Positions 17,532 through 24,532 of a stretch of 64,000 nt of DNA are shown here, piece after piece. This DNA is from an uncultured Gemmiger sp. GTDB taxonomy: Bacteria > Bacillota > Clostridia > Oscillospirales > Ruminococcaceae. Numbering within the stretch: position 1 is the stretch's first letter; every line of letters starts with the position of its first letter. Where the stretch lies: contig CALXHR010000001.1 of NCBI GenBank assembly GCA_944388175.1, positions 434,001 to 498,000 on the forward strand, written 5' to 3'. A model generated the notes under the pieces. That model saw nothing but the letters and a program-made list of their open reading frames with translations. It ran no database searches and was not told the origin of the DNA. The position numbers were made by a program, and so were the translations under genes.

Positions 17532-18263
17532 GTGATTGTAATAATGAATGTGGAGGAACTAAAAATACACGCAGCAAAAATTGCGACTGTATTGCTTTCC
17601 GGCGGTATGCTAGTGGCCTGCGGTCAAGAAGCCACCGCGCCGGAAATCCAGATGCAGGTCGCGGACGGCTACATACAATATTTTAACGGCGCCGATTGGG
17701 AGAATCTGATTGCTGTTGAAGATCTTCGCGGCCCGCAGGGTGAACCCGGCCAGGACGGCAAAGATGGCAAAGATGGCAAAGACGGTGCCGACGGCATTGA
17801 TGGTAAAGATGGCGCGACAGGCGCGCAAGGTCCTGCCGGAGCCAAAGGTGAAACGGGCGCTACCGGTCCCGCCGGGCAGGATGGTGTAAACGGTGCGAAC
17901 GGCCGGGATGGGCGCGACGGCTCTGACGGGTCCGGCGCGGTGCCTTGCAACCATGTCTACCGCCAAGTCTCACAAGTTGTCAATACTCTCGAATCCTATG
18001 AGGACGGAAGTAGCTTACTCCGCAGGACCTACACGCTAATTTGTGATAAGTGTGGCACGCAGACCATCATGTACTACGACTTTGATAAGCCGGCCCTCAC
18101 ATCGCCGTCCTCTCCAACCTCTGAGGTAACGCCGACACCAGAAACAACTCCAACATCAGCTCCTGATCCAACGCCAGGACCTACAGCAACCTTACCCTCA
18201 CCTTCTCCAATCCCTTCTCCGTCACCCTCGCCTACCCCCTCGGTCAACGAAAACAATTGCTGA
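17532..18263 (+). CDS. Collagen-like lipoprotein
   Basis: A predicted surface lipoprotein of 243 residues. A short signal region ends in the lipobox LLSGGMLVACG (Cys about 30). After a linker come 23 uninterrupted Gly-X-Y triplets (GPQ GEP GQD GKD ... about residues 66-134) rich in Lys-Asp, a composition used by bacterial collagens to stabilise triple helices without hydroxyproline. Then follows a small domain with four or five Cys/His (PCNHVY, CDKCG), perhaps metal-binding, and a Pro-Thr-Ser tail. The start is uncertain: GTG at 17532 or ATG at 17544, neither with an ideal ribosome binding site. It lies in the AT-rich island beside an IS remnant, suggesting acquisition. Likely a surface or adhesion role. 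Confidence 0.75.
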   Translation: MIVIMNVEELKIHAAKIATVLLSGGMLVACGQEATAPEIQMQVADGYIQYFNGADWENLIAVEDLRGPQGEPGQDGKDGKDGKDGADGIDGKDGATGAQGPAGAKGETGATGPAGQDGVNGANGRDGRDGSDGSGAVPCNHVYRQVSQVVNTLESYEDGSSLLRRTYTLICDKCGTQTIMYYDFDKPALTSPSSPTSEVTPTPETTPTSAPDPTPGPTATLPSPSPIPSPSPSPTPSVNENNC

Positions 18264-18657: not shown

Positions 18658-19677
18658 TTATGTTTGCGCCGGTTCCTCGGCCGGCAGCAGGATATCGCTG
18701 GCCACCGGCGTCAAAAACCGCGTGCGGAACGCCGCGAGGTCGGGGCATTGCGGCAGCAGGTGCATCGTCTTGGTGACGACGGCTTCCAGCGTCATATCGT
18801 AGGCTTCGATGACGCCGTAGGCCTGCTTGATCTGGTGGCCCACCTGGTAGACGCTCATGTCGCTGCCCTCGTAGATGACCTGCGTCGTCATGATGACGAC
18901 CTTGCCGGCCTCAACCCAGGCGCCGACTTCCTGCGCAAAATCGGCCGTGGCGTAGTACGGCACGCCGCCGACGCCGAAACCTTCGACAATGAGGGCGCGG
19001 TGGGCCGGGCGCAGCAGGCGCAGCACGTCGGGCCGGATGCCGGGGATGAGTTTGAGCACAAACACCGCCGGGTCCAGCGCCAGGCTGGCCTGCGGCACGC
19101 CCAGGCCCTGCGGCATGGGCAGCACGGGGTAGACTTTGCCGTCGCGGATGTGGGCGACCTCCGGGTAGCCGATGCTGGAAAAAGCATGGTAGCTTTTGGT
19201 GCGCAGCTTTTTGGCGCGGGTGCCCAGCATGACCTGGCCGTCGAACACGATGGTGACACCCCACGCGCAGGACGATGCCGCGTAGCGGAAGGCGTCCAGC
19301 AAATTGCGGCGGCCGTCGGTCTCGCGCTCGCCGATGGAGTTCTGCGCGCCGGTGAGCACGATGGGCTTGCGCGAAGCGGGCAGCATATAGCTGAGCGCGG
19401 CGGCCGTGTAGGCCATGGTATCGGTGCCGTGGGTGATGACGAAGCCGTCGTAGGCGTCGTAGGCATCGCGGATGGCGGCCGCGATGGTGCGCCAGTGGTC
19501 CGGGTGGACGTTGGTGCTGTCGAGCTGGAACAGTTGCCGCGTCTCGACCTGGCAGACGTCCTCGATCTCGGGCACGGTGCGCAGCAGTTCCCGGGAAGTC
19601 AGCTGCGGGACTTTGCCCTCGTCGGTTTTTAAAGTAGCGATGGTGCCGCCGGTGGCCAGCATCAGAATCTTTTTCAT
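18658..19677 (-). CDS. ansA: Type I (cytoplasmic) L-asparaginase
   Basis: Hydrolyses L-asparagine to aspartate and ammonia. The 339-residue protein carries both signature loops: MLATGGTIAT near the N-terminus with the nucleophilic Thr, and VITHGTDTMAYTA with the second Thr-Asp pair; a conserved Lys-containing segment VLTGAQNS follows. No signal peptide is present, which fits type I. The start at 19675-19677 (MKKILMLATGG) follows GAAAGGACC. It is about 105 nt downstream of the SpoIID composite with a hairpin in between. Confidence 0.92.
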   Translation of the reverse strand: MKKILMLATGGTIATLKTDEGKVPQLTSRELLRTVPEIEDVCQVETRQLFQLDSTNVHPDHWRTIAAAIRDAYDAYDGFVITHGTDTMAYTAAALSYMLPASRKPIVLTGAQNSIGERETDGRRNLLDAFRYAASSCAWGVTIVFDGQVMLGTRAKKLRTKSYHAFSSIGYPEVAHIRDGKVYPVLPMPQGLGVPQASLALDPAVFVLKLIPGIRPDVLRLLRPAHRALIVEGFGVGGVPYYATADFAQEVGAWVEAGKVVIMTTQVIYEGSDMSVYQVGHQIKQAYGVIEAYDMTLEAVVTKTMHLLPQCPDLAAFRTRFLTPVASDILLPAEEPAQT

Positions 19678-19734
19678 CGGGCAGGTCCTTTCCTCTCCCC
19701 TGCTGCGTCCGGGCAGCCCGGCGCAGGTCACACG

Positions 19735-19767
19735 TTTGCCCCGCTGTTGGTTTCGCAGCGGGGCAAA
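19735..19767. terminator. Hairpin between the SpoIID composite and ansA
   Basis: A perfect 12-bp stem, TTTGCCCCGCTG with CAGCGGGGCAAA. No T-run follows on the minus strand, so it may be an attenuator or RNA processing/stability element rather than a full terminator. Confidence 0.5.
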
Positions 19768-19783
19768 GGTAGGTATTTGGGTT

Positions 19784-22700
19784 TTAATAGGTCGTGATGG
19801 ATGCGCCGGGGTAGTAGTGCAGCAAAATATCCTGGTAGCCCCAGCCGTTTTGCGCATAGCCGATGGCGCCCCACTGGCTCATACCGCAGCCGTGGCCGTA
19901 GCCGTACACATCAAAGATAAAGCAGTCGGAACCGGCATCGTAGCTGACGGTGAAGCACTGGCTGCGCAGGCTGCGGCCGTCGACACTCTGGCGTGCAAGC
20001 AGGTTTTCGCGGAACCAGCGGCCGCTGACGGTATCGCAGTTGCCGTCCGGCCCGACCTGGATCTTAGCCACCCAGCCGTACTGGTTGGCCGACACGATCT
20101 TGAACCAGTTGTTGGGGTCGACGCCCGAAAGGTCGATGTCCATTTCGGCCTTGATGCGGTCCTGCAGCGTCTGGCGCGAGAAGCGCGCCGTGCCGCTGGT
20201 ATTGCCGTTGGTGTTCCAGTTGCTGGCCACCGACTGGTCATAGGGGCTGTCCACCGCCTGCAGCCAGGGGCGGTCGTTGCCCCAGACGTCGGCCGCCGAC
20301 GCCGTTCCGGTGCTGGCCGACGCAAAATACGGCGTAAAGCAGACCTGGCCGTTGTAGGTCAGCAGCACGCGCGCGACTTCCCGCGCAGCGGACAGGGCTG
20401 TCTCTCCCGGCGTGGTGCCGGCCACCGACGGATAGCCCGACTGGCTGAGAATCCAGCAATGGGTGGCGACGCACTGCGCCTTGTAGGCTTCGGCCGGGGC
20501 GTTGGAACCGAGCTCGTTCTGGGCGACCATGGCCAGGCACTGCACCAGGTCCATCGTCTGGGCGGTGCCGTTCATCGTCACGTTGATGGTCTCGCCTTCC
20601 GCCGTTGCGCCGCCCTCCGGCGTGGGGGTACTTTCGCTTGCGGGGGCGCTCTCACTCTGCGCAGCGCTTTCGCTTTCCGGCGGGGTTTCGGTCGGCGCCG
20701 GGGTCGCGGTCGGCGTTGGTGTAGCCGCGACCTGGTCCACCGTGACGGTCTGCTCGGGCAGACTGCCCTCGGCCCCCTGATTGAGGTCGGACTCGGTCTC
20801 GTTGCCGGACCCCGCCACGTCGGTCAGGCCGGCCAGCAGCTTGTCGGCGCCGGCCAGCAGCGCGTCGGTCGTTGCCTGCAGGTCGTCGATCGCATCGCCT
20901 ATGTCGCTGTTGTCAGTACTGCCCCCGGCAGTTCCCTGCGGCTGGCCGCGGTTGGCCGCAGCCGCCGCGCTCTGCTGGGCGTAGCGGTCGACGCTGGCCC
21001 CCAGCAGGCTGGCGACGGCCGGCATCGGCTGGTTTTTGCGCTGGTACTGCAAAGCCGTCAGCAGCGGCTGCTCGGTCGCCGTGATGGAAGCGCCGTCCAG
21101 CGCTGCGGTTTCTTCCTCTTCGATCAGGCGGCCGGTGATGCAGAGCCGCACGTCCTGTTCGTCGGTGGTGGTCGTCAGCGTCAGGAACTGCGAGCGGTCG
21201 CCGACTTCCACGCCGGTATCCCACAGGCTGCGCGTCTGGATGCCCGCCACAAACGAAAGGTAGTCGTAATACTGCGAAAGATCGGTGCTGCCGTAGAGGT
21301 CAAACGCGCCCTCGCCTTCCTCGGCCGGGTCCCAATAGTAGACGGCCAGCACCTTAAAGCGGTACGACGTCCCCGGCAGATACAGCGTGAAGCCGCTGTT
21401 TTCTTTGATGGCATCCTCCTGCGCCAGAACGGCGTAGGTATCGCCGGTGCATTCCAGCACGGTGTTGCCGGGCGTCGGCTGCGCCAGCGCGTTGGCGGTG
21501 GCAAAGCGCGTAAGGGGCTGCACGCTGCCGTCCTGCTTCGGTTCCGGCTGGGTGCCGGCGGCATAGACCAGCGCGCCGTCCAGCCCGGGCCAGCCCAGGT
21601 ACCCGACCGTGCCGGGACGCTTTTGCAGGGCTTTGTCCAGGTAGGCTGCAGCGGTTTCGTCATACAGCGTGGTGCCGTAGCTGCGAGCGGCCGGGCGCGC
21701 GCCAAGGTCATTGCGGAAGAACCACCACAGCGCCCCGGCCCCGGCCAGCACCAGCAACAGCAGCACGACCAGAACCAGAATTACGCTGCGCCGGCGGCGG
21801 CGCTCGCTGCGTTCGATCATGGCCAGGCTGCGGTTGCGCAGGCTTTGGGCGGGGTCGGCGTCCTGCGGCGCGGGCTGCGGTTTGCGGCTGCGGGGTTGGG
21901 GGGTGTCTGCCTGGACGGCGGCGGCTTCTTCCTCCGAGAACAGGCGCGTGGCGGCGCGGCTGAAATCCCGCGCGCTGGTGGTGCGCCCGGCCGCCGCGTC
22001 GGCGTCATCGGCTGCCTGGGCGGCGGCCAGCGTCTGCGGGTCCAACTCTGCCGAGAAATCCGGGATATCGCCGTCCAGAATCGACGGCGCCGGTGTTTCG
22101 TGCGCAGCAGGACGGGGCGCCGCGGCAGGCTGGCGCACAATGCGGCGGCTGCGCGACGCAGCGGCTGCCTGCGGGCCGGCGGTCTCGATCTGCAGCGGGT
22201 CGGCGGCGGGCTGCGCTGCCTGCACTGGGGAGAGATCGGTCTCAAACTGGATGGTGCCCACCGGCACCGCCGGGGACGGACCGGTATGCAGGCGGCGGCC
22301 CGGCTGCTGCGGCTGCTGCGGCTGCGACGGCGGGCTGGCCGGCTGGGGCGGTTCGGCGGTATCAAAGTCCATCATGGGTTCAAAATCCGCCGTGTGGTCG
22401 GGTTCTTTGGTGGCGGGGGTGCGCCGCCGCAGCGAAAAACGCACGGTGTTGCCGCGCGGCTGGCCGGCTTCCGACACGAGCAGCAGCGGGCGCTCTTTGC
22501 CGGGGCGGAACGTGATGCAGGCATCGGTCAGGCGCAGCCCCTGCAGGCGGCGGCGCAACAGGTCCAGAATCTGGTTGGCGATGGCGGCGTCGCTGCGCTC
22601 GGGCGGCAGCGCGCAGGCCACGGCCCCGCTGCGGTCGCAGAGGAGCACAAACGGCCCCTGCCCCACCGTAGCCGGCATGTAGGCGGCGGCAAAATCGGCG

Positions 22701-23209
22701 CCGGTAGCCTGCAGCGCCGTGACAGCGCGGCCGGCCGCCGCCTGCACGACGTCACCGGGGAATTTTTTGAGCAGCTGCGGCGGCACCTGAATTTGCCGCT
22801 GATGCTGGGGATCGGCATAACTCTCGGTGCCAAAGTCAAAGACGGCCTCGCTGTGGGGCAGCGGCTGCAGCACACTGCCCAGCAGGCGGCCGGTGGTCTC
22901 GTCCACCGCCACCAGCAGTTTGCGCTTTTTCAGCAGCAGGTCCAGCGTGGCCTGGGCCAGACTGGTCTCGCCCTCAGCAAAAACATCATCGCCAAACTTG
23001 GCGCGCAGTTTCTGGACCCAGCGGTCGCAGTACTGCTCGGCCATGGCGCGGTTGGGCGCGCTGACCTGCACGCAGACGGCAAACTCGCCGTCGCGTTCCA
23101 GCAGGCGCAGCCCGGGGCAGCCGTCCGCGCGGGCCTGGCGCAAAACCGCCGACACCTCGGCGGCCGTCGGGCCAAAAACGCGCAGGATTTTGAGTTGTGT
23201 GTTGACCAT
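19784..23209 (-). CDS. Composite membrane protein: CinA-like pseudodomain, TM helix, sortase-B-like pseudodomain, SpoIID/LytB domain
   Basis: A 1141-residue protein. Residues about 10-225 resemble the KH-like and C-terminal amidohydrolase parts of the neighbouring CinA, but the nucleophile motif ESCTGG is replaced by DETTGR (103-108). Residues 230-470 are Pro/Gln/Ala-rich and probably disordered. A transmembrane helix follows after RRRRR (about 475-498). Residues about 510-700 look like a class B sortase fold, ending FLTLTTTTDEQDVRL, where the family has STC, so the catalytic Cys is absent. A Pro/Thr/Ser linker leads to a SpoIID/LytB domain (about 870-1141) with the catalytic-type Glu in AQNELG (899), FYHSSSGG-like YFASASTG and GYGHGCGMSQWGA. 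SpoIID domains are lytic transglycosylases acting on peptidoglycan stripped of stem peptides. The start follows GAAAGG, 21 nt after cinA. Domain calls other than SpoIID are by-eye comparisons. Confidence 0.75.
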   Translation of the reverse strand: MVNTQLKILRVFGPTAAEVSAVLRQARADGCPGLRLLERDGEFAVCVQVSAPNRAMAEQYCDRWVQKLRAKFGDDVFAEGETSLAQATLDLLLKKRKLLVAVDETTGRLLGSVLQPLPHSEAVFDFGTESYADPQHQRQIQVPPQLLKKFPGDVVQAAAGRAVTALQATGADFAAAYMPATVGQGPFVLLCDRSGAVACALPPERSDAAIANQILDLLRRRLQGLRLTDACITFRPGKERPLLLVSEAGQPRGNTVRFSLRRRTPATKEPDHTADFEPMMDFDTAEPPQPASPPSQPQQPQQPGRRLHTGPSPAVPVGTIQFETDLSPVQAAQPAADPLQIETAGPQAAAASRSRRIVRQPAAAPRPAAHETPAPSILDGDIPDFSAELDPQTLAAAQAADDADAAAGRTTSARDFSRAATRLFSEEEAAAVQADTPQPRSRKPQPAPQDADPAQSLRNRSLAMIERSERRRRRSVILVLVVLLLLVLAGAGALWWFFRNDLGARPAARSYGTTLYDETAAAYLDKALQKRPGTVGYLGWPGLDGALVYAAGTQPEPKQDGSVQPLTRFATANALAQPTPGNTVLECTGDTYAVLAQEDAIKENSGFTLYLPGTSYRFKVLAVYYWDPAEEGEGAFDLYGSTDLSQYYDYLSFVAGIQTRSLWDTGVEVGDRSQFLTLTTTTDEQDVRLCITGRLIEEEETAALDGASITATEQPLLTALQYQRKNQPMPAVASLLGASVDRYAQQSAAAAANRGQPQGTAGGSTDNSDIGDAIDDLQATTDALLAGADKLLAGLTDVAGSGNETESDLNQGAEGSLPEQTVTVDQVAATPTPTATPAPTETPPESESAAQSESAPASESTPTPEGGATAEGETINVTMNGTAQTMDLVQCLAMVAQNELGSNAPAEAYKAQCVATHCWILSQSGYPSVAGTTPGETALSAAREVARVLLTYNGQVCFTPYFASASTGTASAADVWGNDRPWLQAVDSPYDQSVASNWNTNGNTSGTARFSRQTLQDRIKAEMDIDLSGVDPNNWFKIVSANQYGWVAKIQVGPDGNCDTVSGRWFRENLLARQSVDGRSLRSQCFTVSYDAGSDCFIFDVYGYGHGCGMSQWGAIGYAQNGWGYQDILLHYYPGASITTY

Positions 23210-23230
23210 GATGTGCCTTTCTTTCGTAAG

Positions 23231-24532
23231 TTACAGGTCCATTGGTTCCGGCGGGGTCTGCCGGGTGATCGCCGTTGCGTCGGGTACCGGCAGCCCCAGC
23301 GCCATGCGGCGCAAAAGGTCCAGCGCGTACATGGCCGCGCGGGTGCGGATGACGTCGCGGTCATGGTAACCGCCCAGCGCCAGCCGCAGCAGCCAGCCGG
23401 TGCCGGTGCGGGCGTCGGCCCCCGCCAGGTAGACGGTGCCGACCGGTTTGCCGGGCAGCGCCCCGCCGGGGCCGGCAATGCCGGTGATGCCGACGGCCAG
23501 TTCCGCCCCCGAAGTCTGCGCCGCGCCAAAGGCCATGGCCGCCGCCACCGGACCGGAGACGACATTCCAGCGTGCAATGCGCGCCGCGTCGACGCCCAGC
23601 AGTTTCTGTTTGGCTTCCTCGGAATAGGTGACGAAGCCGTAGGCGAATACCTCGCTGGCGCCGGGGACGTTCGTCAGCCGCTCGGCAACCATGCCGCCGG
23701 TGCAGCTTTCGGCCGTGGCAGCGTGCAGGCCGCGCTCGCGCAATACGCGCACGACGGTATATTCCAGCGCGGGCACGTCGACGTCGTAGGCGGCGTCGCC
23801 CAAAATGTCACGGAATTTTTGCAGATAGGCTTTGCAGTCGGCTTCGGCCTGCTGCGCCGTGGCAGCGCGGGCCGTGACGCGGATTTCGCTCTCGCCAGTT
23901 TTGCAGTAGATGGCCGCCGTGGGGTTGGCGCTGGCAAACAGCGGCGCAACCTTGCTGGCGATGCTGCTCTCGCCCCCCAGCACGCGCAGCGTGTGGGAGT
24001 GGATGGTGCAGTTCTGCCGCCGCTGCAAAGCGGGGCGGACCTGCTCGGTCCACATGGCTTTCATCTCGCGCGGGACGCCGGGCATCAGCACGGCGCAGTG
24101 GCCGGCGTCATCCTCAAACCAGGCGCCGGGGGCCGTGCCGTGGGCGTTGGGGATTTTGTGCCCGCGGGTGGGCACCATGGCCTGTTTGCGGTTGTTGGGC
24201 GTGGGCTGGCGGCCGGTGCGGGCAAAAAACGCCGTGATCTTGGCCCACTCGTCGGCATCAAAATGCAGCGTGTCGCCAAAAGCGGCGGCCACTGTCTCTT
24301 TGGTCAGGTCGTCCTCGGTGGGGCCCAGCCCGCCCGAGAACACCAGCAGTTCGCTGCGGGCGCGCGCCTGGGCGACGAGTTCCCGCAGGCGCGCGGGGTT
24401 GTCGCCAATGACGTGCTGGTGCAGCACGCTGACGCCCAGCTCGGCCAGTTCGCGGCTTAAAAACTGCGCGTTGGTGTTGACGATATCGCCCAGCAGCAGT
24501 TCGGTGCCGACGCAGATGATCTCAGCCGTCAC
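23231..24532 (-). CDS. cinA: CinA: nicotinamide-nucleotide amidohydrolase / ADP-ribose pyrophosphatase
   Basis: A pyridine nucleotide salvage enzyme of 433 residues. The N-terminal COG1058 half has IICVGTELLLGDIVNTN and FSGGLGPTEDDLTKE (67-80); a KH-like linker follows; the C-terminal deamidase half has the nucleophile motif ESCTGG (275-280), YSEEAKQKLLGV and GITGIAGPGG. It recycles NMN to nicotinate mononucleotide. The start is a GTG overlapping the thiI stop by 4 nt (GTGA), with GGAGG about ten bases upstream. The next gene begins with a decayed copy of this protein's second half. Confidence 0.93.
   Translation of the reverse strand: MTAEIICVGTELLLGDIVNTNAQFLSRELAELGVSVLHQHVIGDNPARLRELVAQARARSELLVFSGGLGPTEDDLTKETVAAAFGDTLHFDADEWAKITAFFARTGRQPTPNNRKQAMVPTRGHKIPNAHGTAPGAWFEDDAGHCAVLMPGVPREMKAMWTEQVRPALQRRQNCTIHSHTLRVLGGESSIASKVAPLFASANPTAAIYCKTGESEIRVTARAATAQQAEADCKAYLQKFRDILGDAAYDVDVPALEYTVVRVLRERGLHAATAESCTGGMVAERLTNVPGASEVFAYGFVTYSEEAKQKLLGVDAARIARWNVVSGPVAAAMAFGAAQTSGAELAVGITGIAGPGGALPGKPVGTVYLAGADARTGTGWLLRLALGGYHDRDVIRTRAAMYALDLLRRMALGLPVPDATAITRQTPPEPMDL

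Follow-up and report, generated by a model that had tools for sequence, protein, structure and literature searches.

The window analysed here is a 64,000-nucleotide stretch of DNA from an uncultured Gemmiger sp. (assembly GCA_944388175.1, contig CALXHR010000001.1, positions 434,001 to 498,000). On its reverse strand, next to an intact cinA, lies a single gene for a 1141-residue protein that combines a CinA-like part, a class B sortase-like part and a SpoIID domain around one predicted transmembrane (TM) helix. The features, numbered along the window, are the following:

19784..23209 (-): whole fusion open reading frame (ORF), 1141 amino acids, in the order KH and pseudo-PncC, TM helix, pseudo-sortase B, SpoIID
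22976..23191 (-): CinA_KH-like domain, residues 7-78; E-value 3.9e-4, under the Pfam cut-off, with an agreeing fold prediction
22505..22966 (-): pseudo-PncC (CinA C-terminal) domain, residues 82-235; DETTGR (103-108) replaces ESCTGG
21728..21784 (-): predicted single TM helix, residues ~476-494; hydropathy 3.18 and alignment, with RRRRR just N-terminal
21095..21697 (-): pseudo-sortase B domain, residues 505-705; no catalytic His or Cys, Arg variable among orthologues
20603..21094 (-): low-complexity linker, residues 706-869, assigned from sequence; less constrained, with a ratio of nonsynonymous to synonymous substitution (dN/dS) of 0.21-0.47 in six pairs
19787..20602 (-): SpoIID/LytB domain, residues 870-1141; catalytic Glu is E899
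23231..24532 (-): intact full-length cinA (MoCF-KH-PncC), ESCTGG kept

The cinA stop codon and the ATG of the fusion gene are separated by 21 nt containing GAAAGAAAGG. Under the positive-inside rule, arginines on the N-terminal side of a TM helix place the N-terminus in the cytosol. With one TM helix flanked in this way, the product is predicted to be a type II membrane protein of N-in/C-out topology. A preliminary description had proposed the succession CinA-C, sortase B, SpoIID, with a cytoplasmic CinA part coupled across the membrane. Profile matches and fold predictions bear out the order, AlphaFold and Foldseek recovered both the CinA (KH plus PncC) and the sortase B folds, and the one TM helix lies between the CinA and sortase parts. 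An artefact of sequencing, assembly or gene calling that joined three genes is practically ruled out by independent assemblies, and nothing was found in its favour. The protein was found in all 24 other genomes of the genus that were searched, as a single ORF in 20, including the single-contig assembly G004, and as partial copies at contig ends in 4; homologous fusions are present in G060 and G091 (2 contigs each).

CinA/PncC is a nicotinamide mononucleotide (NMN) deamidase, found together with the COG1058 ADP-ribose pyrophosphatase. The PncC part of the fusion passes the Pfam PF02464 cut-off (27 vs 23.5 bits), and the protein stays under the NCBIfam cut-offs for CinA (TIGR00200, 32.8 vs 243 bits) and PncC (TIGR00199, 15.3 vs 68.9). 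Catalytic residues are numbered after Agrobacterium tumefaciens CinA, for which activity of the S31A, Y58A, K63A and R145A mutants is reported as undetectable and Arg145 as important in phosphate binding (PMC5384747). In the alignment, the fused copy of the window has E, Y, H and a gap at these four positions, so that Y58 alone is retained; the R145 equivalent is a gap in the first Arg column and A in the second. Of 63 standalone CinA/PncC rows, drawn from its family, order and class, S is kept in 62, Y in 63, K in 63 and R in 62. The residues substituted in the former pocket loops (D103, T106, G107, H119, E121, PGD 151-153 and VGQ 182-184) do not vary across 29 Gemmiger-type sequences. The fused CinA shares 26% identity with the adjacent CinA.

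The sortase part has likewise lost its catalytic residues. A sortase B fold following the TM anchor is predicted in residues 505-705, and the catalytic His, Cys and Arg columns hold a gap, T and R in the window. Neither His nor Cys occupies its column in any Gemmiger row examined, and the Arg is not conserved; the match to the class B sortase model TIGR03064 is 22 bits, against a cut-off of 153.75. Cys690 (window 21140-21142, -) is nearly invariant in the pseudo-sortase. As a candidate new nucleophile it was rejected, given that it sits two residues past the old Arg position and not at the Cys position. Elsewhere, the same genome encodes a further class B sortase whose motifs (YGHN, LSTC and the Arg) are intact; its 3.6-kb locus (L032) also contains a 482-aa open frame resembling a surface or pilin-type protein.

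The SpoIID domain, in contrast to these two parts, appears intact, as the preliminary description had also read the three from their catalytic residues; alignments confirmed it on each. SpoIID/LytB model TIGR02669 matches at 114.4 bits (cut-off 83.3), and the sporulation equivalog TIGR02870 reaches 110.4 bits, below its cut-off of 234.75. E899 aligns with the Glu of 5i1t, which we take to be the C. difficile structure, and of 4rwr (C. difficile E101, B. subtilis E88); the segments around E899 are weak alone (8.2 bits for 5i1t, 0.5 for 4rwr), with whole-chain E-values of 8.6e-20 and 1.5e-21. The Glu is retained in 73/73 aligned domains scoring >100 bits. By analogy with its family, the domain would be expected to cleave glycan strands. 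Such cleavage is reported for SpoIID of B. subtilis and of the non-spore-forming Waddlia (PMC6635528), and for C. difficile SpoIID, which is described as requiring prior amidase action (PMC6221140). SpoIIP is retained in 25 of 26 genomes of the genus and shorter SpoIID proteins are also present in other Gemmiger genomes, so the fusion looks like an extra SpoIID protein and not a stand-in; a second SpoIID was not found in the genome of the window, which is 69% complete.

Within the genus, constraint on the dead CinA domain is on a par with that on the working enzyme and exceeds that on the pseudo-sortase. Across nine Gemmiger gene pairs, dN/dS is 0.04-0.16 for the dead CinA domain, 0.07-0.16 for KH plus PncC of the adjacent live cinA, 0.04-0.11 for SpoIID and 0.16-0.29 for the pseudo-sortase, and linkers give 0.16-0.47 in six of the nine; these are simple pairwise counts on pairs that share a genome, 6/9 of them using the window. 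On these ratios a pseudogene was rejected. Of the 24 other genomes of the genus, 23 contain the start of the gene with the dead CinA domain, and the remaining one shows it in pieces on two contigs. The 32 loci returned by a scan with the CinA-like domain come from Gemmiger records, apart from a few that bear the labels Subdoligranulum, Faecalibacterium sp. UBA1360 or Oscillospiraceae bacterium.

A profile search of 148 family genomes, after which loci were fetched, revealed unfused, half-fused and fully fused arrangements of the same three genes. Unfused cinA, srtB and spoIID lie adjacent on one strand in G158 (L166) and G108 (L216). Half-fused loci encode either CinA-SrtB followed by SpoIID (G122, G187) or CinA followed by SrtB-SpoIID (G148, L151). 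Full fusions with live sortase motifs occur in seven genomes (G117, G091, G072, G103, G082, G186, G154); the sortase exceeds the NCBIfam cut-off in 6/6 scanned, and MoCF in these six is above the Pfam cut-off in G117, G091, G072 and G103, below it in G082 and not found in G186. Four further full fusions combine an intact PncC site with a dead sortase (G081, G140, G057, G054). The Gemmiger-like form, KH-PncC only with cinA in front, is found in the genera of G000, G166, G060, G065/G176 and G097/G191 plus G149, where the frame in front is merely 190 aa; the same architecture adjoining cinA, anticipated in the preliminary description, is thus present in sister genera. In G048 (genus of G166) and G052 (a seventh genus) the protein is in pieces on different contigs. 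Overall, the sortase is dead in 20/45 rows with a fused sortase and the CinA in 37/52 fused rows of known copy number. The domain order in the chain equals the gene order in the unfused loci. We are highly confident of the architecture and of a descent from fused neighbouring genes; as comparison of the loci indicates, cinA, a class B sortase gene and spoIID most likely stood side by side and fused in reading order, and the gene of the window descends from them in decayed form.

CinA within a frame of >=700 aa was detected in 33 of 118 family genomes, a lower bound because decay has left some fused CinAs (G082, G186, G154, G060, G166) without a match. Elsewhere in the order the count is 5/126, the four fetched being CinA-SrtB, and in the class outside the order it is 0/132. 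Three of 12 fetched standalone cinA loci have srtB adjacent (G108, G085 and G032 of another family), G108 also having spoIID. Two other arrangements were observed: pncC followed by three or four tandem class B sortase genes and spoIID (L164 in G171, L165 in G133, L168 in G055), and two or three sortase B ORFs beside SpoIID in five genomes without a CinA match (L159-L163: G163, G161, G157, G131, G129), so sortase and SpoIID genes can be linked where cinA is missing. Among the papers listed in the literature searches, two of which gave only part of their hits, no title or abstract describes a CinA-sortase-SpoIID protein or locus; most subscription papers and bioRxiv lay outside the searches. A survey of NMN deamidases states that CinA is occasionally fused to other domains and sets such proteins aside, and the word sortase is absent from its main text (PMC3855486). 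The parts are of known kinds; their combination and history appear undescribed.

The state of the fused CinA follows the number of CinA copies in the genome. Where it is the sole CinA, defined as one PF02464 match per genome, S, Y, K and R are all retained in 15/16 (12 of the 16 belong to the family and 4 to the rest of the order); with another cinA or pncC present, all four are retained in 0/36 (Fisher p 3.6e-12, kinship ignored). The sole exception, G072 (genome 91% complete), keeps S and K and not Y and R. Five genomes of <90% completeness, of which two have an intact fused CinA and three do not, were set aside from this count together with eight more of the 65 aligned fused rows, all from Gemmiger, and the 36 rows include the same-genus pairs G000/G004, G065/G176, G097/G191 and G088/G189. 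Seven of the 36, called CinA-derived by custom hidden Markov models (5 to 7 seeds; matches 20 to 265 bits), have lost nearly all of the PncC part; excluding these gives 0/29. The SpoIID tree offers 2 independent pairs on supported branches (5 on all), which agree in 1.9/2 on average and are never contrary; these are too few for significance. The distant standalone cinAs fetched from genomes that also have a fused copy (n=19) group without exception in a 24-member clade (99, quick tree), which lies apart from most operon-type and fused CinAs. The separate cinA of the Gemmiger group, by contrast, sits at the fusion locus and outside this clade, among operon-type and fused CinAs.

The origin of the fused copy can be read in two ways. 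The fused copies of six genera form one clade (100/100), so any duplication predates these genera; together with the low identity to the adjacent CinA, this clade rules out a recent within-species duplication. G081, the closest lineage by SpoIID (99/96), carries a full and intact CinA fused to a dead sortase and SpoIID, and no other CinA. The preliminary description held that a local duplication of cinA had supplied the domain, which is one candidate origin in view of the unfused loci, the common fusions and the single intact fused CinA of G081. In its older form, a resident cinA would have been tandem-duplicated in the ancestor of the Gemmiger group, and the copy, its MoCF domain lost, would have joined a sortase-SpoIID gene next to it. 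This is a serious possibility, although we lean slightly away from it, and as a statement about origin it is compatible with each explanation of function given below. The adjacency of the two genes at 21 nt, the cinA beside an SrtB-SpoIID gene in G148 and a clade of both Gemmiger-group copies that an approximately unbiased (AU) test does not reject (p 0.24) speak for it. Set against these are the SpoIID sister lineage G081, which already has CinA in the same ORF, and the best CinA tree, which places the fused Gemmiger copies beside the G081 fused CinA and the standalone G114, if weakly (81/65). None of four groupings was rejected by AU tests (p 0.24, 0.31, 0.35, 0.25): p 0.24 stands for the old tandem duplication, and p 0.31 for descent with the G081 fused CinA; the groupings other than duplication lie at p 0.25-0.35. 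The weakly supported CinA tree calls for >=8 changes between fused and unfused, and the SpoIID tree for 8 changes in the state of the sortase, gains and losses being indistinguishable.

As to function, we slightly favour a membrane-anchored glycan-cleaving enzyme, descended from the three-gene locus, whose cytosolic pseudo-CinA has turned into a regulatory or docking domain. KH and PncC, stripped of MoCF and catalytic residues, would reside in the cytosol; the sortase's own anchor helix would have become the internal TM segment, and the dead sortase and linker an extracellular stem. Outside, the SpoIID domain, the sole part with an apparently intact active site, would cut the glycan strands of peptidoglycan. 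The dead CinA domain most likely has a new regulatory role because it is conserved as strongly as working CinA, and that the cytosolic part serves in regulation or docking seems, taken by itself, fairly probable. KH-PncC may form pairs in the cytosol, either between two copies of the fusion or with the intact CinA, whose gene ends 21 bp upstream, and such pairing could position or switch the outer SpoIID domain. In the Thermus thermophilus CinA (TtCinA) dimer, a single two-fold axis is reported to relate the KH and NMN-deamidase domains of both chains (PMC4246079). These are the very two domains that the fusion retains, which makes pairing the simplest mechanism and the one we prefer, if still a somewhat unlikely one. 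Several points weigh against the favoured account. The three-gene locus is just one of several arrangements, since nine of the 12 standalone cinA loci have neither srtB nor spoIID beside cinA. The cinAs of G058 and G114, near those of Gemmiger in the tree, have no sortase or SpoIID in the fetched 10-kb surroundings. The origin of the fused copy lies on a long branch, with neither an old fused copy nor a tandem duplicate decisively favoured. The dN/dS ratios are rough, synonymous sites being well diverged (proportion of synonymous differences, pS, 0.24-0.52 in the CinA part), and the tight conservation could instead serve folding or membrane insertion.

Two other functions can be weighed on the same evidence. 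The pseudo-CinA might be a ligand sensor, its NMN pocket re-cut for another small molecule that alters SpoIID across the membrane. The invariance of several pocket-loop replacements (D103, T106, G107, H119, E121, PGD, VGQ) in the 29 sequences and the strong dN/dS constraint would suit such a role; these residues may equally be structural, however, and the phosphate-binding Arg145 has no counterpart in the window, so that we consider a sensor rather unlikely. It is improbable that the CinA part merely rides along as a folded end in the cytosol that aids stability or membrane insertion, with the enzyme work left to the separate cinA. Such a passive role would fit the loss of catalytic residues in fused CinAs of other genera that coexist with a second cinA, and the SpoIID part can evidently do without PncC, since 7/36 fused CinAs have lost nearly all of it. 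Yet the Gemmiger domain is constrained like a live enzyme and tighter than the pseudo-sortase, and it is present in the 23 of 24 genomes, plus the one in pieces, noted above.

We tentatively entertain a broader hypothesis, one we hold to be possible although not probable, in which an undescribed cinA-srtB-spoIID locus ties the recycling of a by-product of nicotinamide adenine dinucleotide (NAD) to wall remodelling, and the pseudo-CinA has been reused as an inside-out control end that pairs with live CinA or binds a new ligand. The loci form a readable series within one bacterial family, from neighbouring genes through fusion to pseudo-enzyme. They also constitute a natural experiment in which fused CinAs keep their catalytic residues as the only copy and lose them beside a second CinA, the SpoIID Glu being constant. 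If the pseudo-CinA does control a wall enzyme, NAD metabolism would be linked to peptidoglycan remodelling in common gut bacteria, and CinA would gain a second context, testable in commensals.

Two further features of the window were noted. A 1662-codon open frame (19472-24460, +) runs antisense to the fusion gene and most of cinA. Across the fusion gene it is uninterrupted in L062 and L087 and almost so in L078; in the other six relatives checked it is broken, most of all in L069 and L072. It is probably a by-product of G+C-rich codon use. A 243-aa lipoprotein-like ORF (17532-18263, +) combines consecutive collagen-like G-x-x repeats with a tail rich in Thr and Pro.

The fusion can be compared with four known or related systems. 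With CinA/PncC proteins such as T. thermophilus CinA (4uux, 4ct8) and S. mutans 6mr3 it shares the fold and order of KH and PncC; unlike them, it lacks the MoCF/COG1058 domain and the equivalents of S31, K63 and R145, and has gained a membrane anchor and two domains. The class B sortases of C. perfringens (5b23), S. aureus (1ng5) and C. difficile (4ux7) have the same fold with a TM helix just upstream, as in the fusion, which differs from them in having, among the Gemmiger rows examined, neither the active-site His and Cys nor a conserved Arg. SpoIID/LytB lytic transglycosylases (4rwr, 5i1t, 5txu) share the domain, the catalytic Glu and the GYGHG-GMSQ-GA motif, whereas the fusion falls under the TIGR02870 cut-off and carries CinA and sortase parts. 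Closest in layout are the CinA-SrtB-SpoIID fusions of other genera, for example that of G117 (L104:2897-6259), in which domain order and TM position are as in the window, but MoCF is retained and the sortase has its H, C and R.

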